Source: Microbulbifer aggregans
Lineage (GTDB): Bacteria; Pseudomonadota; Gammaproteobacteria; Pseudomonadales; Cellvibrionaceae
Direction: 5' to 3'
Assembly (NCBI RefSeq): GCF_001750105.1
Contig: NZ_CP014143.1
Coordinates: 744,001 to 808,000, forward strand
Length of the DNA: 64,000 nucleotides
The position numbers and the translations under genes are program-made. This document shows, one piece after another, positions 32,193 through 64,000 of this stretch; within the stretch, counting starts at the first letter, position 1, and every line of letters starts with the position of its first letter. The notes below the pieces were generated by a model. That model worked only from the letters and a program-made list of their open reading frames with translations, was not told the origin of the DNA and did not search any database.

Positions 32193-32223
32193 CTACTCTT
32201 ATCGGATTTTCTCCGATACGCTC

Positions 32224-45000: not shown

Positions 45001-45140
45001 TCTAGATATTCATTGATCTCATTGGCACGGGTATTAAGAATGCGATAAATACCGAAATCCAGCTCCGGGCGGTCAATCTGAAATATCTCACGCAGCTTGA
45101 CGATAAGCTCACGGAATTTTGCGGATTGCTTGGTGGTCAT
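42000..45140 (-). CDS. Type III-like DNA adenine methyltransferase Mod (large)
   Basis: 1046 residues, much longer than EcoP15I Mod (about 640). The extra ~430 residues are N-terminal, helical and charged. The methylase core has DPPYNTDAS (motif IV, about 491) before FGGSGTT (SAM motif I, about 783), the beta-class order typical of type III Mod N6-adenine enzymes; a long specificity region lies between. It probably recognises and methylates the site used by the coupled Res. It starts 58 bases after the upstream SNF2 gene stop. Confidence 0.9.
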   Translation of the reverse strand: MTTKQSAKFRELIVKLREIFQIDRPELDFGIYRILNTRANEINEYLENRLPEKIQAALAEGGAAHREQLAQELKDKEAQYAADGLNPDEVPKIKELKQKLDQYSSGANEHESAVFSHLLAFFSRYYDSGDFISQRRYKGDTYAIPYAGEEVMLHWANKDQYYTKSGENFANYSFKLEDGRTVHFRLVAADTAKDNRKDSEKERRFALIERKTVTRIDDGVEYQEELLPVEEVEGEGGKELVVRFEYKPMPKGSKQEALVKKAVEAVLSDAAVKAQWLDLNGRAPTEKNPQRTLLEKHLTNYTSKNTADYFIHKDLGGFLRRELDFYIKNEVMHLDDVQSAGAIADIEKSLRMIQCLRAISLELIDFLAQLEEFQKKLWLKKKFVVSSHYCMTLDRVPEELYPEIVENENQWSQWRRLGVWESIAPGTVEDLKSGLFRMVDTSLFGEKFKRKLLQSHNDIDSEVGGLLVHGDNFQGLSMLYPRYSEQVKCVYIDPPYNTDASAISYKNGYKSSSWVSLMQSRLDKTRQLMTQDGVLVAAIDDAQYRELNFLLSDTFDGNLLGTIVVRANPSGRPTQSGYAVSHEYMLIAGESDESKIQRLPPTPEQKARFSESDEYGIFEWRNLRREGSDSDRDARRYMYYPIYISDTSIRVPEMEWKEDTEEWVALEEPIDGEAVVFPDNENGVQKRWRWEWKTVEAKKSELGVRKDRSGKNYVYYKRRPNEEGVVSVSTWASAKHSATEHGTALLKNLFGANPFSYPKSIHAVEDSIYIAGASKQNALVLDYFGGSGTTAHAVIKLNRTDGGKRKYVLVEQGEYFETVLKPRVQKVIYSQDWENGKPSASDTGMSHCFKVLKLESYEDALNNLQLRRPYGSEDWVNNATNEVKDDYLLRYMLDVESRGSLLSVEDFKKPFSYTLDVAVDSAGASEPQKIDLLETFNYLVGLRVKHIDAQPERGFATVTGTLPTGESCLVLWRDCELLDYKGVTKLCDRLAINPSDSEFDVVYINGDHNIPSVLTQTADEGGATRVLKLRQIEPEFLERMFSVEDV

Positions 45141-45198
45141 TGGTTGGCCTTAAATATTGATATTCGCTTTAAACTTTTACTGTCTTAATCCCCGAGGG

Positions 45199-48081
45199 TC
45201 AGACTACTTGCCAGCGTAAGGTGAAGAGGGTTGTAGTTTCTGCCTTTTGATTTAATCGCTGTTGCAGCGAGTCGAGCAACGCATCGCGCTTTTCAATAAT
45301 CTCATCTTCTACGACAAAGATTTCCTGACGCTGGCGACGCTGTTTTCGCTCCAGCTCCGCAAGCTCGCGCTGAATCTCTGCCTGTTCCTGCAAACTTTCC
45401 GCCTTGCGACCATCGCGTTTCAACTGTGCAATACGTGATTTTGTGTTGCGCAGGGCTTCTTCAGCGGCCAACAATTTGTCGTCGGCCCAGCGTTCCAGCT
45501 TATCCCGTTCTTCATTGAACAGCCGCTGATTGGCTTCCAATACTTCGGCAATACTGGCCTGAACCCGGCGCTCACTATTAGCCACAAGAATTCCCGGCAT
45601 TTCGGAGCTCAGGGTTTCCGGCTTGGCAGCTGCCGGGATGGCCATCAGCTTTTCGCAGGTTTCCTGATCCAATACCTGGCCACCGTCTGTAATGCCCGTA
45701 AATAAAAGGGCATCGGTGGTATCAAAGGCGGTGACGCTTAGGTGGACCAAAGTAAGCCACCCTGATTTGCCGCGTAACTGCTCGATGACCGAAACCCGCG
45801 AGCCGTGTTTGGCGTAATCCAGCTTGAGTAGAGCCGGGGGAGTTTCTGTCTTGAGGCAGGCATCAATGCTCCATTCCCCCAATGGATGACTCAGCCGATA
45901 GGCGTGCGCCATCATGTCTGGCTGAGAAGCGCCGCGAATAAATTGATAGCGACCAACTGGTGCCAGCGAGGCGATGGCTTGCGGAGGCTGAGTCAGGGAA
46001 AAAGCATAAGACTGCTCGTCGAACCGAGCACACTTGGCCAGTGCATGGCGGGTCACGCCCCAGAACCAGCGGCCAATCCTGTCCAGCCGCGCTTCGGCTT
46101 CGTCGAGACGCAGCTTGAGGCGATCGTGCACATCCTCATCAAAATTTTCCAGTAGCTGGGTCTGGGTGTCTTTGATCCGGTCGGTGATCGCCTCTTCGAG
46201 TTCGCTTTGCAAGGTGTTGAACGCAGCCTCAATGTCCTCGGGGTGGCGGCAAGTGTCATAGATCTGCAGGATACGCTTCTCGAAATCAAGCCCACCTTCA
46301 ACCCGGCCTAGTACTTCATCGGATGCACCAAATACTCCGGAGAAAAGATTGAATTTCTCTGTAAGCAACTCCAGCACGCGCTGATCTGCCTGGTTGCGGG
46401 TGTTAAGAAAATTGATTACCACGACATCGAAACGCTGGCCGTAGCGATGGCAGCGGCCGATGCGTTGCTCTACCCGTTGTGGATTCCACGGCAGGTCGTA
46501 ATTAATGATCAGTGCACAGAATTGCAGGTTCACACCTTCGGCGGCCGCTTCCGTAGCGATCATAATTTCCGCACCACTGCCATCGTCCTTGCGAAAATGG
46601 TCGATCAGTGCGGTACGGCGATCTACCTGTGGGGAACCGGTTACGCGGTCGCTACCCTGATGTTCTTCTAACCAGTCCCGGTAGATTGCCGTAGAGTTTT
46701 CGTGCGTATTGGTTCCGCTAAACAGGACCAGTTTGTCCTGGTACCCGTTGGCTGAGAGAAAGCGATGCAGGTATTCCTGCGTGCGTTTGGATTCAGTGAA
46801 GATGATGGCTTTCCTAGGAGCGCCCAGATCAGCCATTTTGCCAAAACCGAGGGTTAGCGCCTTGAGTAGTGCCTGGGCCTTAGTATCAGTCTCCAGGGCA
46901 TTAGCGGCATCGATAAAGGCGGTCAATTCGGCGATTTCTTCTCGCAGGTTATCCTTTTGCAGCTGTCGCTGCTCACCACCTTCAAGGTCGCCTTCGTCCT
47001 CCAGGTAATCCTGCTCCAGATCGTCATCATTGACGAGTTGCTCGAGTAGCTGACTGCCGTCATCTTCCTCTGCGCCATTCAACATCCGTTCAAGACGGTC
47101 GCGGATAGTGAGCAGGGTACCCACCACCGCGTGGGAACTGGAGGCTAGCAATTTGCGCAGTATCAGAGCTGTAAGGTGGCGCTGCTGCCTCGGCAAAGCG
47201 TAGGAATCCTCGCGCTGCAAGAACGCTGAAATACGCTCGTAGAGAGATTGCTCCTCATCGATTGGCTCAAATGGCTGAGTCAGCGCCTTCCGTTCCGTAT
47301 AACGAATGTACTCCAGCACATCACGCCGCAATGTACGGTTGACATAAGAACCCAGGCGGGCTCGCAGCTCATCCATGGAAGCAGCTCCATGTACATACTG
47401 CCGGCGAAACGCTTTTTCGTCGCCAAACATGTGCTCGTCGATGAGTGTGGAGAGACCGTATAGCTCCATTAGCGAGTTCTGCAATGGAGTGGCCGTTAGC
47501 AGCACCTTCTTGCGGCCATCCAATGCGCGCCTTAAGGCCTGCCCGGTACGGTTGCTTGAACGATGTGCATTACGTAGCTTGTGGGCTTCGTCAATCACTA
47601 CCAGATCCCAGGGGATGGCGCGCAGCTCCGCCTCCAGCTTAGCGGCGAAAGGATAGGACATGATGACGACGGCCTTGCCTGCCATAGCTTGTAAGGTAGA
47701 AAGCAGGTCTCCCACGCTTTGTTTACGCATGGAAACCGCATCGACCACTACCGTGGGGACCGCAAACTTCTCTTGCAGCTCCTGAGCCCACTGCTTTCGA
47801 AGGCTAGCCGGACAAATTACCAGCAGACGCCGGCGGCGCTCCGCCCAGGACTGACAGACGACCAAGCCTGCCTCGATGGTTTTACCGAGACCGACTTCAT
47901 CCGCCAGCAGCACCCCCTGCTGTAAGGGGTTACGCAGGGCGAACAGTGCTGCTTCAATCTGATGCGGATTCAGGTCAACCTTGGCGTCGAACAATGAATG
48001 GGACAGGCGGCCGATGCCGTGGGCGGTATCGCGCCGTGTCAATTCATGGGCGTAGTATTTCGCGTGATAGGCCGAAATCAA
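45199..48081 (-). CDS. SNF2/RapA-like helicase linked to Mod-Res
   Basis: 960 residues from TTG 48081, supported by GGGGGAAG. SF2/SNF2 motifs: ADEVGLGKTIEAG (Walker A, 60-72), VVIDEAHKLRN (DEAH 164-167), LLTATPLQN, and QRIGRCHRYGQ (motif VI, about 535). The C-terminal third (about 840-930) is a long charged coiled coil. It resembles RapA/HepA-type and DISARM DrmD-type helicases. Being first in a three-gene unit with Mod and Res, it may help Res-Mod remodel or translocate DNA. 228 bases separate it from the next helicase gene. Confidence 0.9.
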   Translation of the reverse strand: MISAYHAKYYAHELTRRDTAHGIGRLSHSLFDAKVDLNPHQIEAALFALRNPLQQGVLLADEVGLGKTIEAGLVVCQSWAERRRRLLVICPASLRKQWAQELQEKFAVPTVVVDAVSMRKQSVGDLLSTLQAMAGKAVVIMSYPFAAKLEAELRAIPWDLVVIDEAHKLRNAHRSSNRTGQALRRALDGRKKVLLTATPLQNSLMELYGLSTLIDEHMFGDEKAFRRQYVHGAASMDELRARLGSYVNRTLRRDVLEYIRYTERKALTQPFEPIDEEQSLYERISAFLQREDSYALPRQQRHLTALILRKLLASSSHAVVGTLLTIRDRLERMLNGAEEDDGSQLLEQLVNDDDLEQDYLEDEGDLEGGEQRQLQKDNLREEIAELTAFIDAANALETDTKAQALLKALTLGFGKMADLGAPRKAIIFTESKRTQEYLHRFLSANGYQDKLVLFSGTNTHENSTAIYRDWLEEHQGSDRVTGSPQVDRRTALIDHFRKDDGSGAEIMIATEAAAEGVNLQFCALIINYDLPWNPQRVEQRIGRCHRYGQRFDVVVINFLNTRNQADQRVLELLTEKFNLFSGVFGASDEVLGRVEGGLDFEKRILQIYDTCRHPEDIEAAFNTLQSELEEAITDRIKDTQTQLLENFDEDVHDRLKLRLDEAEARLDRIGRWFWGVTRHALAKCARFDEQSYAFSLTQPPQAIASLAPVGRYQFIRGASQPDMMAHAYRLSHPLGEWSIDACLKTETPPALLKLDYAKHGSRVSVIEQLRGKSGWLTLVHLSVTAFDTTDALLFTGITDGGQVLDQETCEKLMAIPAAAKPETLSSEMPGILVANSERRVQASIAEVLEANQRLFNEERDKLERWADDKLLAAEEALRNTKSRIAQLKRDGRKAESLQEQAEIQRELAELERKQRRQRQEIFVVEDEIIEKRDALLDSLQQRLNQKAETTTLFTLRWQVV

Positions 48082-48309: not shown

Positions 48310-51300
48310 TTATACGGGTTCCAATACAACACTGGTCGATCGCGTGGCCACATTGCTCGAGACATGCTCCAGCCAGCGTGTTAGCAGCTGCAATTCACCC
48401 TCCTGTATATCCCCATGGGGGAACGCCAACTGCACCGCCCTGTGATTCCCGCTGGGATAGAATTGCAGCAGTGGCACGCCGTTGTTAAGCGATAACATCG
48501 CCAGCTTGTCCGGCACAGAGTCTCGACCGTCAAACCTTAGAGCGCGCACCGCAGAGAACTCGCTCCGGGTTAGATACACTTCAGTCAGAACAACAGGACC
48601 ATGGGGCGTCTTCTCCCGGCGCCATCCACGACGCAACCGGACGGTTGGTATAGACTCGTCCTCTACTGAAGGCGCCTCATCATTGTCCTGACTTAGTTCA
48701 ATTTCAAGGTCGTCCTTCTGAAGGTCTTGTTCATGTGCAAAAAGCCGGATCTCCATACGATCAGCGAATTCATAGAGTTGGCGATAGGCCTGCTCTATTT
48801 CTTGTCCCGACAGCATTTTATGGCCATCGCCCAGTGCAAACAGTGGTAAATCGACCCTTGCCGTTAGGTAGAAGTGGCTATTTGCTTTGTCTTTGTCCAG
48901 CGCCAGCTTGACCAGTGGAAACTCTTCGCGCTGCGCTTTGAATCTACGCGTGGCACGGGTCAGGCCCTCCTGGTGATTGGCGTTCAGAGCTGCACGGGTA
49001 GCCAGTGGTGAGATCAGCGACAGGTAGTACACAGTGCCCGAAACAAGCGACGAAAGTTCTGACGAATAGCGAAGTTCGGCCACGATCGGTTGCCGTCGCT
49101 GACTTTGGGGCAGAGTGGCCTCTAACAAAAATTGAGCAGCGGGATGCTGCTCGCTGTGCTCTAAGCGATAAAAGTCGTGCCCGTGAAGACGGGATATCTC
49201 GTGTAACTGGCCACGCAGGTAGTTTGTTAGTTCTTCGGAGCTTGCGGATTGGACCGGCTGGTAATCGAAAGCCGGGCACTGAGCTGGATCCAGATCGGCC
49301 GGGTAAGGGTCAGCAACCGTATTGCTTTGATCAGGCCTTCGTAAAAAGTCTTCCCATCCCTCGACGGCGTTCGCTAAGTCTATCTGACGGTCGGTATCGT
49401 GATGTCTGCAGGCATCCATCTTGCCCTCCACATCATGTTTCATCCTGATAAACGACGCTACCTGCTCCTGATCAAATGATCGGTTTAGATAGGGGTAGTG
49501 AATCGCGAGCTCTGTGTTCTCCTGCTGTTGCAATCGGTTGTTCACACATCCGAACAAGCGGTCCACCCGACCCACGCGTTGTTCATTGTCCCCCGGAGTC
49601 CAGGCAATTCCGTAGTGGTGAACCTTTCGACATTGGAGATGGAGATTAACACCCTCTTGGAAAACTGAAGTTGCGACCAAGACATTGGGGTAGAAGGGGC
49701 TGTTAAAGCCGAGAATTAGGCGCTGGCGATTGCTGGTTTCACCACTGGCAAACCAGGCCGGGTTCTGCAAGCTGGTCAACTCGGCCCAGGGTTTCTCCCA
49801 ATCGGCAAGGCGGTGATCTGTGATTTTCTCGCAGAGTGGTTCAAAGGTTCTGATCGCATTGACGAAGTATTGAAACATCAATGAGCTGGGCAACTCTCGC
49901 CTGACGTGCTGTATAAAGGCACGATAGCTCGTCTGAGCATTGCCGCTGCTCTTTTTGCGATTAAACTGGGTAAACCAGCAGTAGAGCTCCACCATCACCG
50001 GGCTCGCATATAGGAAGCCCGTCTTCAGGTAGTTGCCAAGATTCTCCAGGATACCTAGATCCTGTGCCCTCCACTGCCTGAGAAGGGCTTGCTCAGCCTC
50101 TGGCAGTAGATCAAACATCATTCCCCAGGCGGTAGGCAGAGGGGACTCGTATCGCTGCGTATCTGCACCAGCGACATGTTCCGCCTCACTGTCGCTCGTT
50201 AGCCGATCATGCAACTGTAACCGGGTGGCCAGTGCAACATCGCTGAAGGAATCCCGAGTCCGCTCGCCAACTTGCTTGCGCCGGAAGGCTGTGTATTCGC
50301 CGTTGAAGTAGTCGCTGGCCGGCTCCATGAAGAGGCTGAACAGGCTTTCTGGCTTACGAAAGCGGAGCCGCACGTTAGTGGCATCGGTGCGGGCGAATCG
50401 CCCACGCTTGACCACAAACAGGTCTGCGATCCTCGAGGAGAGCTTTTCTTCATCGGTAACGCCTTGTTCGAGGAGATCCTCATCCTCAGCACTCAGCTGT
50501 TCGCGCTCCTCAGCCGTAAGCTTGCCTGTCGGTGCTACGAATTCGGTGAAGAACCGCCGTGACCAGCCCTTGGCTCGCCAGTCCTTTAGCACTGTGGCAG
50601 GTCTGGGGACGCCCAAGGCTTTTACGATTCTGTTGGCCAGTAGCTCGTCGTAAGCCTCGTTGACCCGCTGGGTGATTTCACGCACCGAGGGAATTCGCCG
50701 GACGAAAATCAGATGCTTGTGTTCGTGGAGATCCGGTCCAGTTGAAAAAATCTCTTGCGGTACGCACTGCTGCAGGAGCTTGTCATATTTGGGGTGGGCT
50801 GGATACCTCGAAAAGCGGCGATGGTATTCGCGGGTTAAAGCCTGCAACACCTGAGTATCCGGCGCTGTGGTATAGGAGTCCGCTGCCACCTGATCATCAT
50901 TGTTTTCGGAATCCTGATTATCTGTGGGATCGGTCACCCCCACTGACTCGAACCCCTCTAGATACCCGTACATGAATCTACGGTTGTTTCCGGAGACTGC
51001 TGCATCTTCAACCAGTTTTTTCTGATACAGGGCAAAGAACAGCTCAGCACTCAGGTCATCCCCGAAATCAGCTGGAAGGGCCCGCTCGTGACGATAGCTG
51101 TACTTGTTATGGAAACGCCGCTGGCCTGAATCATCGGCGGCTCCCTCCATCATGCGCAGACGGCGTACCGCGTGTTTTCGCAATAGCTCTGGCGCGTCCT
51201 GCAGGTCTACGTCACGGTCGAAATCTGTAAAGTAGCTAAAGATCGCCGGCACATCGGCGAGTGAAGAATGGCTGGGGGTCGCTGTCAGCAGCAGCGCCCT

Positions 51301-52005
51301 CTCTGCCAAGCGCTTGTTGCCGGAGCCAAAGAATCCTCGCGCGGCTCCAACCCGCTGGGAGCCACCCCCGGCTTTGCGGAAGTAGTGCGCCTCGTCGATG
51401 ATTACTAAGTCGAAGCCTGCACCATCGAGCGCACGCAGGATCTCTCGGTTAATTTCGCGCGCCGTGCGCTCGGCCAGCCGCTGCTTGTCGTCACTGACTT
51501 TCAAATCGCTCGGCAGCAATCCACTTAGGCTATGGATGGTGGTCAGGTAGAAATGACCGGCGCCACTGCTCACCGCCTCTTGCAGATCTGGGAGGCGCTT
51601 GCACAGCTGTGGCTCGTGTACGGGGCCACCGTCGGCCAGGTTACGCACCAGATGGTCAACTTCCTTGTAATGCTCGCGCAGGAAGCCCCGGTACTCCCGT
51701 ATCCAGTGGGTGCAGATGTCGCGATTCGGGGCCATTACCAGAACCTTCGCGTCCGGATTCTGCTTCCACAGCAGCGCCATCACCCCCAGCGCTTGCATTG
51801 TCTTGCCCATTCCCACCTCATCGGCGAGCAACGCAAGATCGTATTGGGCCAAGCGGTTCCACAAGCCCGCAACGCCCTCAGCCTGTTTGGCGGCCATGGA
51901 GGTCTTGTTAGCACTCTCATAGCGCCAATCTGCATTGCCCCGCTCGAAGGTGATCCACTGGGAGACATCCTCTGGCCGTAGTGCACCCCATTCCCTGCTA
52001 GACAT
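48310..52005 (-). CDS. Large SNF2-family helicase of the PLD/DUF6361 module
   Basis: 1231 residues. Walker A is LADEVGMGKTMQALG (about 60-74), motif Ia-like VLVMAPNRDICTHWIREY, DEAH in LVIIDEAHYFRKAGGG (about 200), LLTATPSHS, and motif VI DNEQRVGRVDRLFG (about 810). The gap between the two lobes is unusually long (about 280-720), suggesting a large insert that could read a partner or a DNA feature. The C-terminal ~330 residues are outside the motor. The start overlaps the PLD gene stop by 8 bases, so the two are co-translated. Confidence 0.9.
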   Translation of the reverse strand: MSSREWGALRPEDVSQWITFERGNADWRYESANKTSMAAKQAEGVAGLWNRLAQYDLALLADEVGMGKTMQALGVMALLWKQNPDAKVLVMAPNRDICTHWIREYRGFLREHYKEVDHLVRNLADGGPVHEPQLCKRLPDLQEAVSSGAGHFYLTTIHSLSGLLPSDLKVSDDKQRLAERTAREINREILRALDGAGFDLVIIDEAHYFRKAGGGSQRVGAARGFFGSGNKRLAERALLLTATPSHSSLADVPAIFSYFTDFDRDVDLQDAPELLRKHAVRRLRMMEGAADDSGQRRFHNKYSYRHERALPADFGDDLSAELFFALYQKKLVEDAAVSGNNRRFMYGYLEGFESVGVTDPTDNQDSENNDDQVAADSYTTAPDTQVLQALTREYHRRFSRYPAHPKYDKLLQQCVPQEIFSTGPDLHEHKHLIFVRRIPSVREITQRVNEAYDELLANRIVKALGVPRPATVLKDWRAKGWSRRFFTEFVAPTGKLTAEEREQLSAEDEDLLEQGVTDEEKLSSRIADLFVVKRGRFARTDATNVRLRFRKPESLFSLFMEPASDYFNGEYTAFRRKQVGERTRDSFSDVALATRLQLHDRLTSDSEAEHVAGADTQRYESPLPTAWGMMFDLLPEAEQALLRQWRAQDLGILENLGNYLKTGFLYASPVMVELYCWFTQFNRKKSSGNAQTSYRAFIQHVRRELPSSLMFQYFVNAIRTFEPLCEKITDHRLADWEKPWAELTSLQNPAWFASGETSNRQRLILGFNSPFYPNVLVATSVFQEGVNLHLQCRKVHHYGIAWTPGDNEQRVGRVDRLFGCVNNRLQQQENTELAIHYPYLNRSFDQEQVASFIRMKHDVEGKMDACRHHDTDRQIDLANAVEGWEDFLRRPDQSNTVADPYPADLDPAQCPAFDYQPVQSASSEELTNYLRGQLHEISRLHGHDFYRLEHSEQHPAAQFLLEATLPQSQRRQPIVAELRYSSELSSLVSGTVYYLSLISPLATRAALNANHQEGLTRATRRFKAQREEFPLVKLALDKDKANSHFYLTARVDLPLFALGDGHKMLSGQEIEQAYRQLYEFADRMEIRLFAHEQDLQKDDLEIELSQDNDEAPSVEDESIPTVRLRRGWRREKTPHGPVVLTEVYLTRSEFSAVRALRFDGRDSVPDKLAMLSLNNGVPLLQFYPSGNHRAVQLAFPHGDIQEGELQLLTRWLEHVSSNVATRSTSVVLEPV

Positions 52006-53920
52006 GGCTCACCTCCTGATAGCCACTCGTGCTGGCAATGTAGTCAATGAATTTACGCTGCTCTCGGTTTGTGGAAGGCAGCGGCGGCACTGGCACTTCC
52101 AGAGCCCGCCACTGCTCGGTGGTGAGATGCATTGGCCCTTGCTTCTCATCGAGAAACATCAGTCGTTCACGGGCGAAGCAACAGGTCGTATTTAGCTCTT
52201 GCGCCAGGAACCAGTCGATCACCGCTGCAGGTTTGTCATCTAGCCGCATCCGGACCTTTTCGACCAGCTCTTGCAGGCAACCTGGGTAGACCCGCAGCCA
52301 CTTGACCAGCTGCTCTGCCTCGGTGCAGGTCTCCAGTCGTGCGCGAAACTGCTTCATGGCGTAGAACAGGCGGAAGTAGGTCAACTCCTCGCTACTATCA
52401 CCGTCTGTCGCTAGGGGTAGTGCCTCGTCCGGATCGTCGTCGGAGCGAAGGCTCGGGTGCAGCACCAATTTACCATTGGTATCTGGGTCGCTATTGGTAA
52501 CCAGGCTATCGAAAAGATCTTTCAGGGTCTCGAAGCTCTGGGCGCGCCGGTAGCGCTGGCCGGTTTCGATAATCAGGCCACGAATAGTTTCGCCGTCCGA
52601 GGACAGTATCTGATAAAAATGTCGGGCCAACAGTGCAGAGCCATCCTCTATCGCGAGGTTAAGAGGCTGTAGTCTCCTGTCTTCAGCCCAAATCAGCTCT
52701 TGGCGGGCTCTCAACCCTGGCAGCTGCAGTTGATAGCCGGCCTCAGGCTCCCCCACATACCACTGGCCACGGATGGTGTAACTGCTGGTCTGCCAGTTGA
52801 AAGTAACCGTCAGGTCGAAAGGCGGCGCTGAGTCTACATCCAGCTCGCTGTCCTCGAGTTCGATCTCACTGGCGAAGTCCTGTGCGCCCACTGCTAATAC
52901 TGGACCAGCGATGGCGGGAACGGTCTTGCTTCGGTGCAGAATGCCGGCCTCGATATTGATACCGCCACCCTCTTCGTTTGCATCGGTGAAGCTGCTGGTG
53001 CCTGGGTGTGTGAAGTTCCAGGAGCCGATGGCTAGCGTTGCCTGGGTCGCCGTTTCCGCCAACCAGAGTTTGGCGTGGGTGAAATCGATGTTGTCTGGGG
53101 GCGGCGCTGGGTAATCACGGAATGTCAGAGCGCCCGTTTTCAGCAGCTCGCTCAGCTCCTCACTCCAGGAAGTGCGGATCTTGTGCCCTTCAATCCTGTC
53201 CGGCACTAGCGCCAGCTTTAGGGCAGGGCTGTCGAGCTTTTGTTGCAGACGCGCAACAAATGCCGGCAGGTCCTCCGCCATATAGGGCGACCAGACTGTG
53301 AGCTGCTCGAGGGGGGTACCGTCGCCAAGGCGGGATAGAAACGTCTCCCGTTCGAAACTGTGTATAAACTGCCAGTCCGTTTCATTACCAGGTGCTAGCG
53401 GCTGCTCAGGCAAATCCAGAGCGCGATCCAGCCCATTAAAGAAGCGCTGAACCTGCTGTTGCTGCACCTTGGTGCTTACCCTCCGAAAATCGAATACCTC
53501 CTGATTGCGGCCCCAACCGCTTACGGTGAGATTTGCACTACCGGCACCGAGAACCGCCTTGCCGTCCTGATCTTCCAAATAGATCACCTTAGGGTGAAAC
53601 AGTGTGCGATCGGTGATGCCCTCCAGCTGTCGGGCAAATGCACGCACCTCTACCGGGTGAATCTGAATTGCCGTACGTTTGAATTGATCGGCCTCCAGCG
53701 CACGGCGATCGCAAAAGACACGAAAGTCGATGCCCTGCTGGCTCAGCTCCAACTGCAGCGCCTCATAGGCCATGCGGTCCCTGGGCGGATCCTCGCCGAG
53801 GATGGCGGGGAGAATATGGCCTTCAACGAAGGGAATACTGATGTTAAAGCTGGTGAGCCATACCCGCTTCAGGGGACCGAGCTGCTTAAGTTCCTTTTTC
53901 AGACGCTGCATCAGCTTCAT
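51998..53920 (-). CDS. Phospholipase D-family nuclease
   Basis: 640 residues. Two HKD-type half-sites are visible: HPKVIYLE...GSAN (His109, Lys111, Glu116, Gly127-Asn130) and HAKLWLAE...GSWN (about 282-300). Both carry Glu where the usual motif has Asp. Two half-sites in one chain indicate a complete PLD active site. PLD-fold nucleases such as NgoFVII/BfiI-like enzymes and DISARM DrmC cut DNA in defence systems. It overlaps DUF6361 by 4 bases (ATGA) and the helicase by 8, so the three proteins are likely made in fixed ratio. Confidence 0.88.
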   Translation of the reverse strand: MKLMQRLKKELKQLGPLKRVWLTSFNISIPFVEGHILPAILGEDPPRDRMAYEALQLELSQQGIDFRVFCDRRALEADQFKRTAIQIHPVEVRAFARQLEGITDRTLFHPKVIYLEDQDGKAVLGAGSANLTVSGWGRNQEVFDFRRVSTKVQQQQVQRFFNGLDRALDLPEQPLAPGNETDWQFIHSFERETFLSRLGDGTPLEQLTVWSPYMAEDLPAFVARLQQKLDSPALKLALVPDRIEGHKIRTSWSEELSELLKTGALTFRDYPAPPPDNIDFTHAKLWLAETATQATLAIGSWNFTHPGTSSFTDANEEGGGINIEAGILHRSKTVPAIAGPVLAVGAQDFASEIELEDSELDVDSAPPFDLTVTFNWQTSSYTIRGQWYVGEPEAGYQLQLPGLRARQELIWAEDRRLQPLNLAIEDGSALLARHFYQILSSDGETIRGLIIETGQRYRRAQSFETLKDLFDSLVTNSDPDTNGKLVLHPSLRSDDDPDEALPLATDGDSSEELTYFRLFYAMKQFRARLETCTEAEQLVKWLRVYPGCLQELVEKVRMRLDDKPAAVIDWFLAQELNTTCCFARERLMFLDEKQGPMHLTTEQWRALEVPVPPLPSTNREQRKFIDYIASTSGYQEVSHV

Positions 53921-55293
53921 GCGGCACCTCCCAGCAACCCCTGCAGCAAGTTTTGGAACTGCGGAATGTAGTAGTGATTGACCCAGTGCCCCCGCGGACG
54001 ATCCTCGGGGTCGGGCTCACGCCGCGAACGCACATCGAGCTTTAGTGTCCCATCGGCGCTGAGGCGTAGCCAGGGTGACTGGCCTCGGTCCTGCATGACG
54101 CCATTATGGTAGGTCAGCAACTGGTGCAGTTGTGACTTGGCATCTATCAGATGAGCAAGCTTAAGCAGCTGTTGCAGGCGCCGTTTCCCCGTACCCGATA
54201 ACTGCGACAGCAAAGCCTCCAGGTCAGTGGCGGTGTCCCTCAAAACTTGCGGGCCGCGCCCATATTTCGCCCACAAGGCAGCAACCTGGTCGAGCGTCTG
54301 TTGCTTGTTGACCAGCATCAGAGTAAACAGCAGGTCCAGCTCAGCCAGAAAGGGCTCCAATTGGCGGACACGGTCGATCTGGCGGCGCTCCTGCTCGCTC
54401 AACGCTGAATCAACTTGGGCTTCGGTGAAGATTGTTTGTGGCTTTGCCTTTGAGCTTCCACCTATCGCCGATGCCAGCACTCGGTAGAGTGCGCCAGCAG
54501 CGCCGCGGTCCAGGTGTGTCACACCTAGCCAAAATTCTCGGGCATAGCTCCCCACCCTAGCCGGTGACTTATAGGCCTCCACATAGCCAGACTTGATCGC
54601 CGCTGGCACCTGATTGAAGGCCACCTGGGGTGCCTTACTAGGCTGGGATAGCACCTCCTCCATATGGCCCCGCAACGCGCGGTAAAGCAGGCTCAGTGGT
54701 CGGACCTGCTTGATCAATGCATGCGCCTGTTTCCATAGGGGCGCCGATTGCGGGGAGTAGTGGTAGTTCTTGTCAAAGAACCCCATCTGTACCAACGGCG
54801 TCTTGTAACGTCCGCTCACCCCCAGTAATGGCTGCCGGACGAGGATGTAACTCTTGTCGGTATCACCAAACAGAAGTGACGGATTACCCGCTCCTTCGCT
54901 CTTGTTCCCCCAGCGTTTACGGGCCTTGGCGCTCCCCAAGACACCGCCAGTATCGACACCGGCATCATCCTGATGCGCAATCATCGAATAGGTAAACAGG
55001 TTTTCGAGATAAATCAGACAGGCGGTCTTGAAACTGAGGGTGTCGAGCCGCTCAAAGGTCTTTCCCAACTGCGGGCTAAGTCTCAACCGCTCATCTTCTA
55101 CCAGATCTTTGATCAGACAATGATGAAACAGGTTGAGGGTGTAATTGCGCACGTCGTTGGAGATGGAGCTGACGCGATAGCGGAAGATATCCTGGCCGAA
55201 GGCCGACCAGATCACCTGCAACCCCAGAGGGTCCACGTTTAGGTCACCGCCGAGGCTGTCATCGTATTCAGTAAGGAATTGGTTCAGATCCAT
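53917..55293 (-). CDS. DUF6361-like protein
   Basis: 458 residues, assigned from memory to the DUF6361 family that accompanies PLD nucleases and helicases; the enzymatic role is unknown. There are no membrane segments. The sequence is helical, with repeated Leu/Arg/Gln segments (QVDSALSEQERRQIDRVRQLEPFLAELDLLFTL) and a basic C-terminus (DVRSRREPDPEDRPRGHWVNHYYIPQFQNLLQGLL). The lack of a recognisable catalytic motif suggests a recognition or scaffold subunit. It couples to the PLD gene by ATGA and follows the DUF429 gene by 52 bases. Confidence 0.72.
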   Translation of the reverse strand: MDLNQFLTEYDDSLGGDLNVDPLGLQVIWSAFGQDIFRYRVSSISNDVRNYTLNLFHHCLIKDLVEDERLRLSPQLGKTFERLDTLSFKTACLIYLENLFTYSMIAHQDDAGVDTGGVLGSAKARKRWGNKSEGAGNPSLLFGDTDKSYILVRQPLLGVSGRYKTPLVQMGFFDKNYHYSPQSAPLWKQAHALIKQVRPLSLLYRALRGHMEEVLSQPSKAPQVAFNQVPAAIKSGYVEAYKSPARVGSYAREFWLGVTHLDRGAAGALYRVLASAIGGSSKAKPQTIFTEAQVDSALSEQERRQIDRVRQLEPFLAELDLLFTLMLVNKQQTLDQVAALWAKYGRGPQVLRDTATDLEALLSQLSGTGKRRLQQLLKLAHLIDAKSQLHQLLTYHNGVMQDRGQSPWLRLSADGTLKLDVRSRREPDPEDRPRGHWVNHYYIPQFQNLLQGLLGGAA

Positions 55294-55345
55294 GAGTAAC
55301 TGAGGTCCTTGTTATTATTTTTGTGTCGTCTTGATTGGTTGTTTT

Positions 55346-56137
55346 CTAGCCACCGCTCAAGGCATCGCGAGGTACGAATATCCAGCCTTCACCACTCGGT
55401 GTAGCTACATCAGGCTGGAATAGGTCATCTGGCTGGAAGTGATAGAGCCATGCCACCAGAGCGCAGAGCAAGGCATCGCGCTCGTCCTCGTGATTGATGC
55501 CATAACCAAACCCCGTAGTTTCCCAAGCATCAACCTGGTTAGCAGCAGGCGTGTGGCGGTAAGGTTTCAGTAGTTCAAGCACTAGCTCCGAAGGCTTACA
55601 GGCAGCGGGATAAGCCTCAAACGCAGTAAGATGGGTGCCGTTGGTCCAGATGCCTACAGACGGGTTCTCGGGTGCAAAACGCGCCAATGCATGCATGCCT
55701 TTGGTTGCTTGGCTACCGATCATGTCCTTGACCGGAGAAAGTGGTGTCAAACCTCGCTGGAAGAGGATCCGTTCGGTGTAACGGAATAGGTAGGGATTAT
55801 CGGCGGATGTCTCAATAGTTCCAGCTGCTCCCTCACCGGAAATCAGCTGCCGGAAGGCCTGGGAGAAACCCAGCGGCGTATCGATAGCCAACATTACCGA
55901 TGGTGGGCTACCGGAAGCCTCTATCTGACAACAAGCTAGTAGAGCCTGTATCCACTCCTGCGTATTGGCGGCCTCATTGATCAACCGGCGAACATTACCG
56001 CGCCAAGGCTGGCCTAGGATGTTGCGCTCGCTGTCCAGCACCACCAAAGCATCACGGCTATTGGCATTGCGGTCGCAGTTCCAACCGCCAACATCCCACC
56101 CGATAAATAAGGGACCTGAGATACTGCTATCGATCAT
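55346..56137 (-). CDS. DUF429-family RNase H-fold protein
   Basis: 263 residues. RNase H-like fold with acidic residues in place: IGWDVGGWN at the start, VMLAIDTPLGFS, and HEDERDALLCALVAWL near the end. DUF429 proteins are predicted nucleases; the acids would bind two metals. Genome context in other bacteria is often defence or mobile DNA, but the substrate is unknown. It lies between the DUF2779 and DUF6361 genes in the same direction, with gaps of 95 and 52 bases. Confidence 0.8.
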   Translation of the reverse strand: MIDSSISGPLFIGWDVGGWNCDRNANSRDALVVLDSERNILGQPWRGNVRRLINEAANTQEWIQALLACCQIEASGSPPSVMLAIDTPLGFSQAFRQLISGEGAAGTIETSADNPYLFRYTERILFQRGLTPLSPVKDMIGSQATKGMHALARFAPENPSVGIWTNGTHLTAFEAYPAACKPSELVLELLKPYRHTPAANQVDAWETTGFGYGINHEDERDALLCALVAWLYHFQPDDLFQPDVATPSGEGWIFVPRDALSGG

Positions 56138-56232
56138 CGGCTACAAATCGCTATATCATTGAATTTTTTCTTATGGTTACTGAACATTACTAGGAACCGC
56201 ACGGGCAATAAAGCCGGATTTCAGATAGCGAT

Positions 56233-58215
56233 CTAGCCTCTCACCACTTCCTGCCAGGCTTCAAAAATCATCACCATAGCTAGCGTATCCAGCTCACAGT
56301 ATTTCAACAGCGCCTTGCGCAACTCTTGGCGTTCATAATCGCCCATGTCCGTGGACTGAATCTTTGCGTATGCCGCCAGAGCCGCACCGCCATTAGCCAA
56401 GCTGTCACTTTCCGACAGTAGTTCTTCGATGTTTTCCGGCATGTCTTCAAACATGCGCGGCAGCAGGCGGTAGGGATCCTGAACCTGGCCGTCTTTACAT
56501 TGTATCCACTGCCAGTCTGTGAAGTTGTGGCTGGGAATACCACCTGTCGCGCCATAAATTGGCTGAGCGTATTTCTCCTGCAGAAAAGCAGAGTCGCTCA
56601 ATACGGCCGGCAGTACATACTTGATGGAATTGGAGCCCTTGGTCGCCGGGTAGTAGGCATAGCGCTTGACCAATTCCAGCATATCGACCATATCCCGCGG
56701 TCCACGCCACTCTCGTTCACTACCTTTCGTTGAATGGGAAATGGACTCGATAAACGTGCACAGTTCGTGGACGTCCTTATCCGACAGTTCGCTATCCCGC
56801 AGCTGGCGGTGGATCAGGTTGAGGATGCTGTTTTCATGGGTCGAATAACGAAAGATTGTGCCGTTGTCACTATCCAAAGCTTCCTTGAGCTTGCGGATAA
56901 AGTCGAAGCTGGGGAAATGTCCCGGGGTAGTATCCAGAAACTGGTGCGCGTGCGCGACAGCACCATCTTCCTGAACCACATGATGCGAAAACTGGAATGC
57001 TACGCCCTCGTATGGGTGCCGACCGCGGGTGAAGGGAAGCGCGGCAGTGATGGTTTCAAAGTCGATAAAGTGCAATGGGTACGTCCAGCGATCCATTTCT
57101 TCTCGTAGTTCATCTATAAATAAATCCGGACTGCCGTCTTCCTTCTGCACCTTGATAATCTGCAGCCACTGGCGTTGGCTATTGGAAAGGCCTCGTTTCC
57201 CGTCTGACGCGGGATTGATGTCTGCCTCTTCGATATCTATCAGTTTGGCCTTGCCTTGGGCGAGGAGCTCATCGGCATTGCGGAAGTTGGCAATTTCCAG
57301 CACCGAAGGATCCTTAAAGTCCTTGTCCAACCAACCCAGCGCCTCTTTCCAGCACTCACGGTAGCCACTTAGCCGACCTAGAGCCTCGTCTTCCGTTGTA
57401 CAGCAAAATTCGCATTTCTTACAAACAGCACCAATACTCCCGCGTAAACGCTTCCCTTTTTGCAGGGCGTCCGCAACGGTCGCGATATAGCTCTCAAAGG
57501 ACTGTCCGTGATAGTCACACTTTGTTCGGATAAAATTTACAGGTTCGTCGACATCGACCTTTATGAGCAGCTCGTTAGCTAGGTCTTCATCACTGAGGTC
57601 GCCAGACACCAGCACCATGCCGCTATCCATCGTTACCCTGAACTTGCTGTTCAGCCCATCGGTAGCAGCGCGGGCCTGCTTATTGGCCAGCATCAGATAG
57701 CTGTCGATATTGCCGGTGTCCAGTGCCTTTTCCAACACCACTTTCTGGAAAGCGACATCACAGAGATAAGGTTCCCACTTGCTGAGAATTCCGCTTTTTT
57801 TCTTATTCAGGAAGCGATCACTTGCTGAATCCCAACCTTTCGCCTTGACTTCGATCAGATGATAGCGGGCACCATCCTTGACCAGGATATCCACACGTAC
57901 CAATAGCTGATCATACTGGAATGCGGCCTCGAAAATGGTGACGTTATCCTGGTGTAGTAATTCTCGAGTGCGTACGAGGGCGGCACCGGTATCCAGGTCT
58001 GACAGGTCCTCCCCATTCGAGAAGTAGCACTTCGCTAGGGCCCCAACCTGGAATCCGCCACGGGCCAGCTCAGCGAGAAAGTCATCTTCCAGGCTCTGGT
58101 TGGCATAGTTTGGCTGCTCGCCATAATAAAGCTTGGTGGGGCATTCAAGGGCTCGCCTGAAGCGCGACTTGGTCAACAGCACCGGCATCTGCTTGTGGAG
58201 AGAATTCTTATCCAT
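56233..58215 (-). CDS. Cas4-like PD-(D/E)XK nuclease fused to DUF2779
   Basis: 660 residues from ATG 58215, with AAAGGAAG upstream; an in-frame ATG at 58242 lacks a ribosome site. The N-terminal half is Cas4/RecB-like: ALECPTKLYYG, VRVDILVKDGARYHLIEVKAKG (catalytic Asp, Glu-x-Lys), and CKKCEFCC, so a four-Cys Fe-S cluster is likely. The C-terminal half is DUF2779, beginning FIDFETITAALPF, which suggests a second exonuclease-like (RNase H/DEDD-type) site. Two nuclease modules in one chain are notable. First gene of the leftward five-gene set. Confidence 0.85.
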   Translation of the reverse strand: MDKNSLHKQMPVLLTKSRFRRALECPTKLYYGEQPNYANQSLEDDFLAELARGGFQVGALAKCYFSNGEDLSDLDTGAALVRTRELLHQDNVTIFEAAFQYDQLLVRVDILVKDGARYHLIEVKAKGWDSASDRFLNKKKSGILSKWEPYLCDVAFQKVVLEKALDTGNIDSYLMLANKQARAATDGLNSKFRVTMDSGMVLVSGDLSDEDLANELLIKVDVDEPVNFIRTKCDYHGQSFESYIATVADALQKGKRLRGSIGAVCKKCEFCCTTEDEALGRLSGYRECWKEALGWLDKDFKDPSVLEIANFRNADELLAQGKAKLIDIEEADINPASDGKRGLSNSQRQWLQIIKVQKEDGSPDLFIDELREEMDRWTYPLHFIDFETITAALPFTRGRHPYEGVAFQFSHHVVQEDGAVAHAHQFLDTTPGHFPSFDFIRKLKEALDSDNGTIFRYSTHENSILNLIHRQLRDSELSDKDVHELCTFIESISHSTKGSEREWRGPRDMVDMLELVKRYAYYPATKGSNSIKYVLPAVLSDSAFLQEKYAQPIYGATGGIPSHNFTDWQWIQCKDGQVQDPYRLLPRMFEDMPENIEELLSESDSLANGGAALAAYAKIQSTDMGDYERQELRKALLKYCELDTLAMVMIFEAWQEVVRG

Positions 58216-58242
58216 GACGTCTTCCTTTTCCGGCAGTTCCAT

Positions 58243-58421: not shown

Positions 58422-59243
58422 ATGCCCAAACCCCACGAATACTTCAGCGCAATAAGAGATGGCGCCCCCATCAACTGGCGCCGGTTCCTGACCGCCATGG
58501 GCAGAAATGGCGTATTGCCGGGACATCTGATGCAGTGCCTGCAACCCGAGTCCCGATTCGCCGGCGAGAGCGTCATTAAAGTTCTTGATGAGCGGTCACT
58601 GCGGGAGATCGAATCCCAGTTCCCGGCGCCCGCCCCCATCATCGACCGCATAAGCGCATCCCATAGCGGTAAGTCCCACAGTGAGCGGGTCGAGGGAAAT
58701 GCGCTGATGATTCAACATATCAGCTGGGACAGGCCGCGCGTCGCCTTCAGCCGGGATGGACAAACCTGGATCGAGGATGAACCTGCCGGGGACATCCTGG
58801 TCATCGTCGAAAACCTGCAGAATTTCATCCGCTTTGAAGAAACGATTGCCCTAGTGGTGGACCGCTGCGGCCTGTCTGCCGCCCCCAGTGAGATTACCCT
58901 GCTATTTGGCGCCGGGCAGGCAGCGGCCAAAGCCTGTAATCGCACACTATATACCCGGTACCGGGAGGTGCACACCCTCCTGGACCTAGACGCCGGAGGC
59001 ATCAAGATCTACGGCAGCATCAAGGCATTGCTGGCGAATACCGGCCTGCAGCCGCGCTTTCTTGTGCCCGACAATATTGACGCCTATCTCGCCCGTGCCA
59101 CCTCAAGCATGAGTCAGGACGAGCGCACCGCGATACATTGTGCCGGACGCGCACACCCAGAACTTACCTACCTCCTCCAACGCCTGTACCTCACCGGTAA
59201 AAAGCTCGAGCAGGAAACCTATCTGGACCCCCTTAATGAATAA
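58422..59243 (+). CDS. Wadjet JetD/MksG-like Toprim nuclease
   Basis: 273 residues. A C-terminal Toprim fold has Glu130 in LVIVENLQNF and the DxD pair Asp188/Asp190 in LLDLDAGGIKIYGSI. This matches the DUF7281/JetD-type nuclease of condensin-like plasmid-defence systems, which cuts DNA after loop extrusion. The N-terminal part (MPKPHEYFSAIRDGAPINWRRFL) is a winged-helix-like recognition region. It is shorter than most JetD proteins. Its 3' end overlaps the next gene by 8 bases. Confidence 0.8.
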   Translation: MPKPHEYFSAIRDGAPINWRRFLTAMGRNGVLPGHLMQCLQPESRFAGESVIKVLDERSLREIESQFPAPAPIIDRISASHSGKSHSERVEGNALMIQHISWDRPRVAFSRDGQTWIEDEPAGDILVIVENLQNFIRFEETIALVVDRCGLSAAPSEITLLFGAGQAAAKACNRTLYTRYREVHTLLDLDAGGIKIYGSIKALLANTGLQPRFLVPDNIDAYLARATSSMSQDERTAIHCAGRAHPELTYLLQRLYLTGKKLEQETYLDPLNE

Positions 59244-62200
59244 CGCGCAACACTCTTTTGTCGATGGTGACAAGTACCGGCTGAAAACCCTCATCATGGT
59301 TAACTCGGGCAATGCCGCGTACGTCGAGATCCCGCTCAATGAAACCGCAGCCCTGCTCTCGCGCAACAATGAAGGTAAGACCTCCGGGCTCAACGCCCTG
59401 AAGCTATTCTTGTTGCCCGAGGTCAATTTCCGTAACTGTGAGCAGAAGTTTGAATTCAAGTCGGGTGGGGAGGTGTATTCCGGCATTAAGAGCTTCAACT
59501 ACTACTTCCCCTCCCCAAATTCCTTCTTGATTTTGGAAGCGGAGAACCCGGTGGGTGACTTCTGTGTAGTGCTGTATCGCAGCAAGGAAGAACTGGGCTA
59601 CGCGCGCATCATGATCGATATGCCCTACGAGGCCATCCGCCACCTCTTTTGGGATATTCATTCCGAGGCCAATAACGGCCTGGGCAAGCCCCCAGAGGGG
59701 ATGGCGCTGAGCGACGTACAGCAAACCCTGCTGCACATGCACGGCGAGGTGTTTGACGATCAGGAGCGGATTCGTACGGCGATGTACACCCGCTACACTC
59801 CCGGGCGGAGGGAAACCCGCTACTGCATAATGCCCACTGTGCAACCTCCGAGTGGCGCGCTGCTGAAATCCATCAAGGCGTTGCTGCAACTTTCTTTTGA
59901 CATTAAGGGCGCGAGCGGCGGCAACCTCCCCCAAGCCGTCGCGAATATCATCGATAGCGAGATCAGTCTCACCAAAAAACCGGTGAACATCGACCTCAAG
60001 CAGATCAGCGAAGACCGCGAGAGCCTGAGGCGTAACGCTCAGCAGATTCAGGCCATTAAGAACCACAGCGACGACTGGCAGGCGCTGAACCGGGCCTACC
60101 ACACCTTCCATACCCAAAAGATCAAAGCCCACAAAAGTTACTGGTTGCTGCGGGCGTCACTGGAGCCGCTGGAGGAAGGACTTGAGCCGCAACTGCAGGA
60201 GTTGCATGGCCGCAAGACCAGCCTGCAGGGTCAGCTCAACGGCGCCAAGGACAGCCGCAACATCGCCAACCGCAAGCTTAGCGAAGTGAAGGGCGGGCTG
60301 AGCCTGCTCGCAAAGAATCTCGCCACCGGGCAGAAAAAACTGCAGGAGGCCGAGGCCATCATCCAGCAGAACCAACTGATATGTGAAAGCGGAGACCCGC
60401 AGGAAGTGGTGGAATACCTGCAAGGAATCCTTCGTGACGAAGAGGAAGCGCTCCGCAGCATGGAGTCCAAGGAGAGCGCCACCGCCGAACTGCAGAAACG
60501 AATTGGGGAGAAAAAAACTGCGCAGAACGAGGCCGCCAAGCTGGAGGCACTGATCGCCGACTTCGGCCAATGCTTCCTGAACCACCTGGACCGCCACAGC
60601 GCGACCGTGCTCAACAGCTTGAACGCCGACTTCCGTCGCCTCAGTATCACCCCAATGGGGAGCCAGACCAAGGCCATTCAGGGGTTCACGGAACTATTCA
60701 CCCTCGACGAGGAGGGTCATCTGGTGCTGGGCGGAGAGCCCCTGCCAAACGCACGCATCAATCACTACGACGAAGAGAGCAGCCGCAAGGAAGCCGAAAA
60801 CTTACTGGACGCGGTACGCCGCACCATCGAGGCGGTGGACAAGCGCATCAGTGAACTCCACCGAATCATCTCCGCCAACGGACCACTGTCACAGGAAATG
60901 CTAGGGGAGAAAAAAACCGAAATCGTCGAACTAAGAGGCGAAATCGCCCTGCTGCAGCGCTTGCCCGGCATCCAGGATGATGTGCAAAACCGGCTGGTGG
61001 AACAAGAGGCGCTCCGTGCGCAACAGGATGAATACGACATCGAGCTGAAATACGCCGAGGAGCACCTGGGGCAGCTGCTGGCGGAGCAGGAAGAAGTCAC
61101 CGAGGCACTCCGCACGCTGGACGACCTGCGACACGCCATCAAGACTACCAAGCAGGAGCTCAACCACGCGGTGCGCAGTCTCCCAGAGCTTGAAAGCAGC
61201 GCGCGTCCCGCGAGCATCAGCGCACAGCTGATCACAGATCCGGGCGAACTCAGCGCCCACTACCAGCCACTGGAGCAGAGCCTACGGGCGTTGACCGGCG
61301 CCGTCCAGGAAGCAGAGCACCGGTTCCGGGTGCTGGCCGGGGCCGGCATCATGGACGTGCCGCCGGAGATTACCCACAAACCGCAGCTCGACGACACCGA
61401 GTTCCAGGCCATCTACGAGCAGATCCGCTCCGAGTTCGAAAACATCGACAGAAAGGAGCACGACCACAAATCCCAGATCGCCAACCATAACCACCGCACC
61501 AGCATCGAAATGAGCATGCTGGAGAGCATGGGAGTGGCCATCGAGAACTTCCAGAGCCGCATCAATGAAACGCTGGAAGGCATCCGGATTTCCAACCTGT
61601 CTGGGGTCAGCATCCGCATCCAGGCATTGCAGGCGTTTATCGAACTACGCAAGGAGCTACAGGACTACGGCCGCGGTACCACCGAGCTGATGAGTGAATC
61701 CTTCCACCGCCGGCTGATGGACTTCAGCGAGAAGTATCTGACCAGCGCGCGCGGCTCTACCAAGCTGAACCTGGAAAAAATCATCACCGGAGTGCGCTTC
61801 ATCTACGAAATCCAGGGCCAGAAGGAGGACACCTCCCAGTCCCACGGTACCAACGGCATGATCAACGCGGTACTGCTGTCGATCCTGATGAAGAAGTTGG
61901 TACCTGAGGATGTGGTGTTCACCCTGCCGGTGGTGTTTGACGAGGTCGGCAGCCTCGACGAGAAGAACCTGCCGGAGCTGCGCCGGGTGGTGGAGGGCAG
62001 CCGTATGGTGCTGCTGGTGGCCAACCCCCACAACAACGGCTACATCGTGCAATACATCGGCCGCTGGCACGACATCTACACCCGCAAGCTGAGCGAGGGT
62101 TTTGCCGTGGGCAAATGTCAGGCGGTGCACGTCATCCGGCATGAAGCGCTACGCGGCGAGGTGACCCTGCCCGGTAGTACCGGCGAGAATGCCGCACCGG

Positions 62201-62247
62201 AACAATCCGCCGCAGAGGCCGTGGTGACTGCGGAGGACGAGGCCTGA
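59236..62247 (+). CDS. Condensin-like ATPase, JetC/MksB family
   Basis: 1003 residues from ATG 59236, inside the end of the nuclease gene; a frame back to 59140 is rejected. SMC-like layout: Walker A region LLSRNNEGKTSGLNAL (about 42-50), two long coiled-coil arms (about 260-830, interrupted by a hinge near 430-520), ABC signature region SHGTNGMINAVLLSI (about 871), and Walker B LPVVFDEVGSLDEKN (about 899). The Walker A lacks its first Gly. In Wadjet the ATPase extrudes plasmid loops and the Toprim partner cuts them. Confidence 0.85.
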   Translation: MNNAQHSFVDGDKYRLKTLIMVNSGNAAYVEIPLNETAALLSRNNEGKTSGLNALKLFLLPEVNFRNCEQKFEFKSGGEVYSGIKSFNYYFPSPNSFLILEAENPVGDFCVVLYRSKEELGYARIMIDMPYEAIRHLFWDIHSEANNGLGKPPEGMALSDVQQTLLHMHGEVFDDQERIRTAMYTRYTPGRRETRYCIMPTVQPPSGALLKSIKALLQLSFDIKGASGGNLPQAVANIIDSEISLTKKPVNIDLKQISEDRESLRRNAQQIQAIKNHSDDWQALNRAYHTFHTQKIKAHKSYWLLRASLEPLEEGLEPQLQELHGRKTSLQGQLNGAKDSRNIANRKLSEVKGGLSLLAKNLATGQKKLQEAEAIIQQNQLICESGDPQEVVEYLQGILRDEEEALRSMESKESATAELQKRIGEKKTAQNEAAKLEALIADFGQCFLNHLDRHSATVLNSLNADFRRLSITPMGSQTKAIQGFTELFTLDEEGHLVLGGEPLPNARINHYDEESSRKEAENLLDAVRRTIEAVDKRISELHRIISANGPLSQEMLGEKKTEIVELRGEIALLQRLPGIQDDVQNRLVEQEALRAQQDEYDIELKYAEEHLGQLLAEQEEVTEALRTLDDLRHAIKTTKQELNHAVRSLPELESSARPASISAQLITDPGELSAHYQPLEQSLRALTGAVQEAEHRFRVLAGAGIMDVPPEITHKPQLDDTEFQAIYEQIRSEFENIDRKEHDHKSQIANHNHRTSIEMSMLESMGVAIENFQSRINETLEGIRISNLSGVSIRIQALQAFIELRKELQDYGRGTTELMSESFHRRLMDFSEKYLTSARGSTKLNLEKIITGVRFIYEIQGQKEDTSQSHGTNGMINAVLLSILMKKLVPEDVVFTLPVVFDEVGSLDEKNLPELRRVVEGSRMVLLVANPHNNGYIVQYIGRWHDIYTRKLSEGFAVGKCQAVHVIRHEALRGEVTLPGSTGENAAPEQSAAEAVVTAEDEA

Positions 62248-62248
62248 T

Positions 62249-63706: not shown

Positions 63707-64000
63707 AGAGTACAGTCGGCAAATTTATAACGAGCTCATCAATGGCTGGGTTATCAACAAACAGGTTATGGAGGGCGACCTGCTGGTACCGAACCCGCTG
63801 TACGACGAACTCGCTTCTGCCCTCAACCGGGAACACTACATCCAGCTCTACAGCTGCATCGGCTATGAGCTGAAGGAAATGGGTGGGTGTTTTTTTCTAA
63901 ACGAGCTGAACAAAAACGATGTCTTATCCGACGCCGCCATGCGCATTCAGGTCATGCTGGTGGTGTTGGTCCGTGGCACGTCGCAGTTACCGCAAGTGAC
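63699..64000 (+). CDS. MksE/JetB-like subunit (3' end outside window)
   Basis: First ~100 residues only. The start is GTG 63699, since AAGGAG lies 7 bases before it; the in-frame ATG at 63693 is too near that site. The sequence (DKEYSRQIYNELINGWVINKQVMEGDLLVPNPLYDELASALNREHYIQLYSCIGYELKEMGGCFFLN) is a MukE/MksE-like winged-helix start. It overlaps the kleisin stop by 8 bases, so it belongs to the same operon. Confidence 0.7.
   Translation, partial: MDKEYSRQIYNELINGWVINKQVMEGDLLVPNPLYDELASALNREHYIQLYSCIGYELKEMGGCFFLNELNKNDVLSDAAMRIQVMLVVLVRGTSQLPQV

Follow-up and report, generated by a model that had tools for sequence, protein, structure and literature searches.

A probable defence locus of Microbulbifer aggregans with the catalogued three-gene candidate PDC-M27 at its core

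The 64,000-nucleotide stretch of Microbulbifer aggregans DNA analysed here (the window; G000:C1:744001-808000, from a genome of 3.86 Mb in a single contig) holds a probable defence locus, which was at first extended too far, to five genes. Three of these genes, M27A, M27B and M27C, encode a helicase-nuclease set that matches PDC-M27, a candidate listed in a public catalogue of defence systems. We consider it likely that the A-B-C operon specifies a DNA-targeting complex directed against phages or plasmids, similar in its working to Azaca and other helicase-nuclease systems, with a DUF2779 gene as an occasional upstream add-on and a DUF429-like gene as an independent neighbour. The five-gene claim is thereby narrowed to three genes, a well-delimited unit that can be tested and whose catalytic residues are named. 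The trio is also linked by architecture to Azaca, and the neighbouring genes to be left out, or added singly, are now identified.

The M27 core and its conservation

A reading of the letters and open reading frames (ORFs) alone, hereafter the sequence-only reading, had placed five same-strand genes here, the last three overlapping by 4 and 8 bases. All five are present as drawn on the minus strand within 48310-58242, and the two overlaps are exact. M27A (53917-55293; 458 amino acids, aa) shares exactly 4 bases (53917-53920) with M27B (51998-53920; 640 aa), which in turn shares exactly 8 (51998-52005) with M27C (48310-52005; 1231 aa). M27A matches PDC-M27A (PDLC04552) at 593.7 bits, its residues 1-457 aligning to positions 1-459 of a 460-position profile. 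For M27B and PDC-M27B (PDLC04553) the score is 770.5 bits (residues 1-635 on positions 1-634 of 635), and for M27C and PDC-M27C (PDLC04554) it is 1552.6 bits (residues 1-1217 on positions 1-1214 of 1217). These families, and the PDC-S44 family discussed below, belong to PADLOC-DB 2.0.0; an excerpt of PMC12548924 expands PDC as phage defence candidate. Since the trio matches this listing, it is already catalogued, and the claim of a new system does not hold. No paper naming PDC-M27 was found in the open literature searched.

Two of the three proteins carry intact catalytic motifs and bear out the labels first given to them. M27B, a phospholipase D (PLD)-family nuclease, matches PF13091 at 40.1 bits in Pfam and has two HKD motifs (H109/K111/S128/N130 and H282/K284/S300/N302). 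The residues of both are invariant in 32 of 32 aligned sequences, a count that includes the window and leaves out three short (cut) ORFs. M27C, a superfamily 2 (SF2)/SNF2-like helicase, has Pfam matches to ResIII, SNF2-rel_dom and Helicase_C; its motifs DEVGxGKT (I), DEAH (II) and QRVGRxDR (VI) likewise recur in 32 of 32 aligned sequences, window included. The label given to M27A fared differently. This protein had been called DUF6361, and it has no Pfam match at E<=10; it is therefore not DUF6361 by hidden Markov model (HMM). A genome-wide search with PF19888 (DUF6361) gave zero matches, but the control genomes gave none either. The AlphaFold2 model of M27A is all-helical (mean predicted local distance difference test, pLDDT, 92.2; predicted template modelling score, pTM, 0.89), and Foldseek found no match to it in the PDB at E<=0.001.

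M27C comes in two forms. The window and seven loci (L011, L027, L031, L033, L038, L039 and L040) have a form of about 1210-1230 aa, and most others are shorter. The shorter form stops near window residue 900-930; the longer has some 300 extra C-terminal residues.

A pattern-based scan of the genome contig collection, built on an M27A alignment, yielded 36 loci, of which we take 34 to be from Pseudomonadota and two from Bacteroidota metagenome bins, going by their record titles. M27B directly follows M27A in 34 of the 36. M27C is present in 31, which are all those interrupted by neither a contig end nor a transposase gene; four of the remaining five stop at a contig end (L013, L015, L030, L034) and one has a Tn3-type transposase (L032). 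At that last locus (L032:9971-14488) the gene after M27A encodes a Tn3 transposase domain, and B and C were not found in the remaining stretch. Of the 33 loci where it could be measured, 31 show an overlap of M27A with M27B, which is exactly 4 bases long in 28. For M27B and M27C it is 4-14 bases in each of the 21 loci whose M27C has ATG or GTG as its aligned first codon; the start of C could not be placed in the other 10 loci that have it. Pairwise distance matrices for the three genes show correlations of 0.975-0.98 (378 pairs; 28 sets, namely 27 loci and the window, with short or cut ORFs left out and no host-tree control), as would be expected for co-inheritance.

The sequence-only reading had asked for a gene set that is conserved together and matches no described system. 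What we find is that the last three genes keep their order and overlaps across loci, that the five are not kept as a set, and that the trio matches a listed candidate. Its view of the locus as a defence unit thus survives for the last three genes, as a helicase-nuclease unit backed by the PDC-M27 matches, joint conservation and overlaps; the five-gene extent does not.

M27A is present in 2 of 299 genomes of a phylum sample, its own genome included, and in 3 of 72,556 plasmid records, from Rhodoferax antarcticus and Vibrio nigripulchritudo. In the one plasmid inspected per species, a helicase gene lies two genes after M27A. The gene is also on one IMG/VR contig, and it is in 0 of 50,697 phage records. 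From the 130 proteins listed in the flanks of M27 loci, 73 were picked by hand, with six loci taken as near-duplicates left out; three of the 73 match type I methyltransferase models and two match type I specificity models (E<=1e-20). A helicase with an MZB domain adjoins L028.

This distribution bears on the view that the trio is an operon for DNA repair or chromosome maintenance and has no part in defence. Pairs of a helicase and a nuclease are indeed typical of repair machinery as well. Against such a role stand the patchy occurrence in 2 of 299 genomes, the position on an island at a tRNA gene, a site that is empty in relatives (below), the plasmids of Rhodoferax and Vibrio, and the restriction genes nearby in the window and in some relatives. 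We regard a repair operon as very improbable.

The data show which genes form the trio, their order and overlaps, their joint inheritance and their intact motifs; from these we infer an activity against invading DNA, assembly into a complex and a division of roles. In this scheme M27C would load on invading DNA and travel along it using ATP, M27A would help to recognise the substrate or bridge the subunits, and, with the complex engaged, M27B would cut by means of its paired HKD active site. The Hachiman helicase-nuclease pair senses genome integrity, according to a passage of PMC12278908, which makes the trigger of the M27 trio a concrete question.

The two upstream genes

Upstream of M27A lies a gene for a DUF429-like, RNase H-like putative nuclease (55346-56137, minus strand; 263 aa), which matches PDC-S44 (PDLC05021) over its full length at 379.9 bits. 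Its DUF429 label was not confirmed by Pfam: PF04250 had no match in the whole genome at E<=10, in a search that was positive in 4 of 14 control genomes. Acidic positions of the protein are common to its relatives in L081 and L089. The gene was found at none of the 36 M27A loci. It occurs in 4 of the 299 phylum-sample genomes, and the window's own is the one genome among them that also has M27A. It is an independent neighbour, not a conserved part of the trio.

The outermost of the five genes encodes a DUF2779 protein, as first proposed, with a PF11074 score of 75.5 bits against a curated cut-off of 23.3; it matches no PADLOC family at E<=0.001. Read from an upstream ATG at 58242, the gene (56233-58242, minus strand) encodes 669 aa, and the start first assigned to it, at 58215, is an internal ATG. 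The protein joins a Cas4-like PD-(D/E)XK domain with cysteines to a DEDD exonuclease-like domain. In an alignment with six relatives, the Cas4-like D and EVK motifs, the cysteines and the exonuclease DFET motif are all kept.

Among 40 M27A-bearing genomes or records, five, including the window's own, carry a PF11074 gene that clears the cut-off, and one more has a match below it. In four of the five this gene stands a short way upstream of M27A, in the same orientation: in the window, on the Rhodoferax plasmid (L085), in Zoogloea (L037) and in Massilia (L036). In the remaining one, the genome of L011, it sits on a different contig. When the window, which set the question, is excluded, three of four are upstream of M27A. 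The gene between DUF2779 and M27A is the DUF429-like one in the window and a WYL-domain gene in the Rhodoferax plasmid. Counted by locus, DUF2779 is upstream of M27A in 2 of 36 loci and one plasmid. Its background is 16 of the 299 phylum-sample genomes, own included; the genome-wide excess with M27A is therefore small, and it is the position that stands out.

The DUF2779 proteins beside the other M27A genes score about 140-150 bits to PF11074, and the difference from the 75.5 bits of the window protein suggests that such genes may have been recruited repeatedly. Given the few cases and the general clustering of defence genes, we treat this as a lead. The DUF2779 gene is at most an occasional upstream accessory of the trio.

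At two of these places (L085:7322-10971 and L037:4617-8413) the DUF2779 gene has as its neighbour a gene whose product, of about 700 aa, gives two AAA-domain matches. The two genes are possibly a small module of their own.

These data also weigh on the five-gene system as first conceived, in which the DUF2779 and DUF429-like nucleases would be integral effectors of a helicase-PLD core. Its attraction is that all five genes share one strand with short gaps, and that a family present in just 16 of 299 genomes recurs in the same place and orientation in L085, L036 and L037, so that four of the five genes over the cut-off are found there. Yet the DUF429-like gene is at 0 of 36 loci, and 34 of 36 have no DUF2779 gene beside M27A (upstream sequence was under 5 kb in six loci, and the family was sought in whole genomes). 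Moreover, the DUF2779 proteins that accompany M27A elsewhere differ in type from that of the window, by score and because two of the three are of about 500 aa, and M27A (2 of 299 genomes) and the DUF429-like gene (4 of 299) have only the window's own genome in common. We judge a single five-gene system quite improbable, and return to the trio as the unit.

The tRNA-Phe island and its other cargo

The trio, the DUF2779 and DUF429-like genes, a type III restriction pair and a Wadjet-like set all lie on one genomic island of about 39 kb. Its attachment site is a tRNA-Phe (gaa) gene identified by ARAGORN (26721-26796, plus strand). A 25-base sequence that begins at 26774, at the 3' end of this gene, recurs as a direct repeat at the far end of the island (G000:C1:809845), 1845 bases beyond the end of the window. 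An internal copy of 18 bases (32175-32192) lies beside a tyrosine integrase gene (32164-33846, plus strand; Pfam Phage_integrase, Phage_int_M and Arm-DNA-bind_3). G+C content, 58-63% on the left, is lower in most 4-kb blocks of the stretch (49-56%) and is back to about 60% some kilobases beyond the right repeat. Among the 29 genomes searched, six of the same genus (G470, G475, G478, G479, G480 and G482) have an empty site, where at most about 10 bases after the tRNA there begins a 34-253-base match to the DNA beyond the far repeat of the window's genome. As the tRNA is joined to far-side DNA in these six genomes, the 39 kb or so are an insertion.

The sequence-only reading had placed the locus between a restriction system and a Wadjet-like system. 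The first is clear: a type III restriction subunit gene, res (38653-42000; PADLOC REase_III, 1620.9 bits), and a type III DNA methyltransferase gene, mod (42000-45140; MTase_III, 1186.6 bits), fill 38653-45140 on the minus strand. The Wadjet-like side (58422-63998, plus strand) is only weakly recognised, its first gene matching JetD at E 8.5e-6. A 1035-aa protein of this set has a weak match to structural maintenance of chromosomes (SMC) proteins, and neither it nor the 485-aa protein matches a family in PADLOC (E<=0.001) or Pfam (E<=0.01). The set may be an uncatalogued SMC-type system.

An SNF2 helicase gene resembling DrmD (45199-48081, minus strand) lies 228 bases downstream of M27C. Its product matches PADLOC DrmD (PDLC02619) at 653 bits, under the NCBIfam DrmD_b cut-off of 950. 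A search for this helicase at the 36 M27A loci gave a sole match, at L012, which falls inside M27C. The gene is a separate unit and belongs with the type III genes. It stands just upstream of them on the same strand, and the whole run (38653-48081) is perhaps a helicase-assisted type III system. No full-length relative of the type III, DrmD-like or Wadjet-like genes was found at the 36 M27A loci. As cargo separate from the trio, the island carries the type III pair, its helicase and the Wadjet-like genes.

Comparison with Azaca and other systems

An SNF2 helicase (DrmD) and a PLD protein (DrmC) are found in DISARM too, but the matches of M27C and M27B to the DrmD, DrmA and DrmC models are only local and fall far short of the NCBIfam cut-offs. 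The DrmA model covers just the helicase region, at 127.6 bits in the protein of 45199-48081 and 33.6 bits in M27C, in each case below other helicase families. Neither the five proteins nor the adjacent type III and DrmD-like proteins match DUF1998 or DrmB, a result that for the two SNF2 helicases covers the best 25 PADLOC families. The earlier statement that the locus is neither DISARM nor BREX agrees with this, as no DUF1998 match was found and the matches to the DrmA, DrmD and BrxH models are confined to helicase regions.

Among the catalogued candidates, PDC-M27 is matched end to end by all three core proteins, and no difference in the core was found; the window additionally carries the DUF2779 and PDC-S44 genes upstream. 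PDC-S44, a single-gene DUF429-like candidate, is matched by 55346-56137 over the length of that gene, which Pfam DUF429 does not recognise and which has no link to M27 elsewhere. DUF2779 corresponds to family F.17 in the portion of PMC3985635 that describes it, with a Cas4/DUF83-like nuclease domain and an RNase H-like domain of the exonuclease clade, and the motifs of the window protein fit this make-up. With its lower score and 669 aa, the window protein is more divergent than the three other M27A-side forms and longer than two of them.

The closest system by architecture is Azaca, which a passage of one review counts among largely uncharacterized systems (PMC12926258) and for which an excerpt of PMC10952713 lists a PLD-like domain. 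DUF6361 is ZacA: three ZacA proteins, found by the PADLOC model in 3 of the 299 genomes, match PF19888. Loci L041-L043 read ZacA, ZacB, ZacC, so that the order of a small protein, a PLD protein and a helicase is common to them and the window. Self-matches aside, M27C scores highest in PADLOC with ZacC (92.8 bits, with BrxHI at 65.3), and the two ZacC proteins that were tested score highest with PDC-M27C. Both helicases have a long spacing from motif I to motif VI, with 747 residues for M27C and a range of 850-873 for three ZacC proteins; the DrmD-like neighbour has 478. ZacB is the best non-self match of M27B (34.6 bits), and hhalign sets the N-terminal blocks of M27A and ZacA co-linearly. These likenesses are what one would expect if PDC-M27 were a true Azaca subtype, with M27A a very diverged ZacA/DUF6361 and one common mechanism.

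Other details weigh against a subtype or show how local the likeness is. The similarity of the helicases is limited to short motif regions (E 5.5e-27, the best stretch being residues 766-821). The likeness of M27B to ZacB is restricted to one HKD region (E 2.4e-9, residues 108-161; 38 columns at 19% probability in hhalign), and it does not hold in reverse, as three ZacB proteins have no PDC-M27B match at E<=0.001. M27A, unlike ZacA, is not DUF6361 by HMM. It has no PADLOC ZacA match at E<=0.001, and a comparison of the two profiles gave no significant similarity: for the full-length score 10 of 200 column shuffles do as well, and for the N-terminal block 81 of 200. When predicted secondary-structure elements were permuted, 180 of 200 permutations scored as high or higher, and 193 of 200 did so at a higher structure weight. 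A true subtype is thus a possibility that we take seriously but hold to be unlikely. Because kinship of M27A and ZacA could not be shown, we describe the trio as like Azaca by architecture and do not file it as Azaca.

A bolder reading would set PDC-M27 apart as a defence class of its own: its first subunit, with a fold unseen in solved structures, would replace DUF6361/ZacA in the helicase-PLD chassis, and DUF2779, a Cas4/DEDD double nuclease, would be repeatedly recruited upstream as an add-on effector. We think this distinctly unlikely. The trio is most likely an Azaca-like module of a helicase and a PLD nuclease with a different first subunit.

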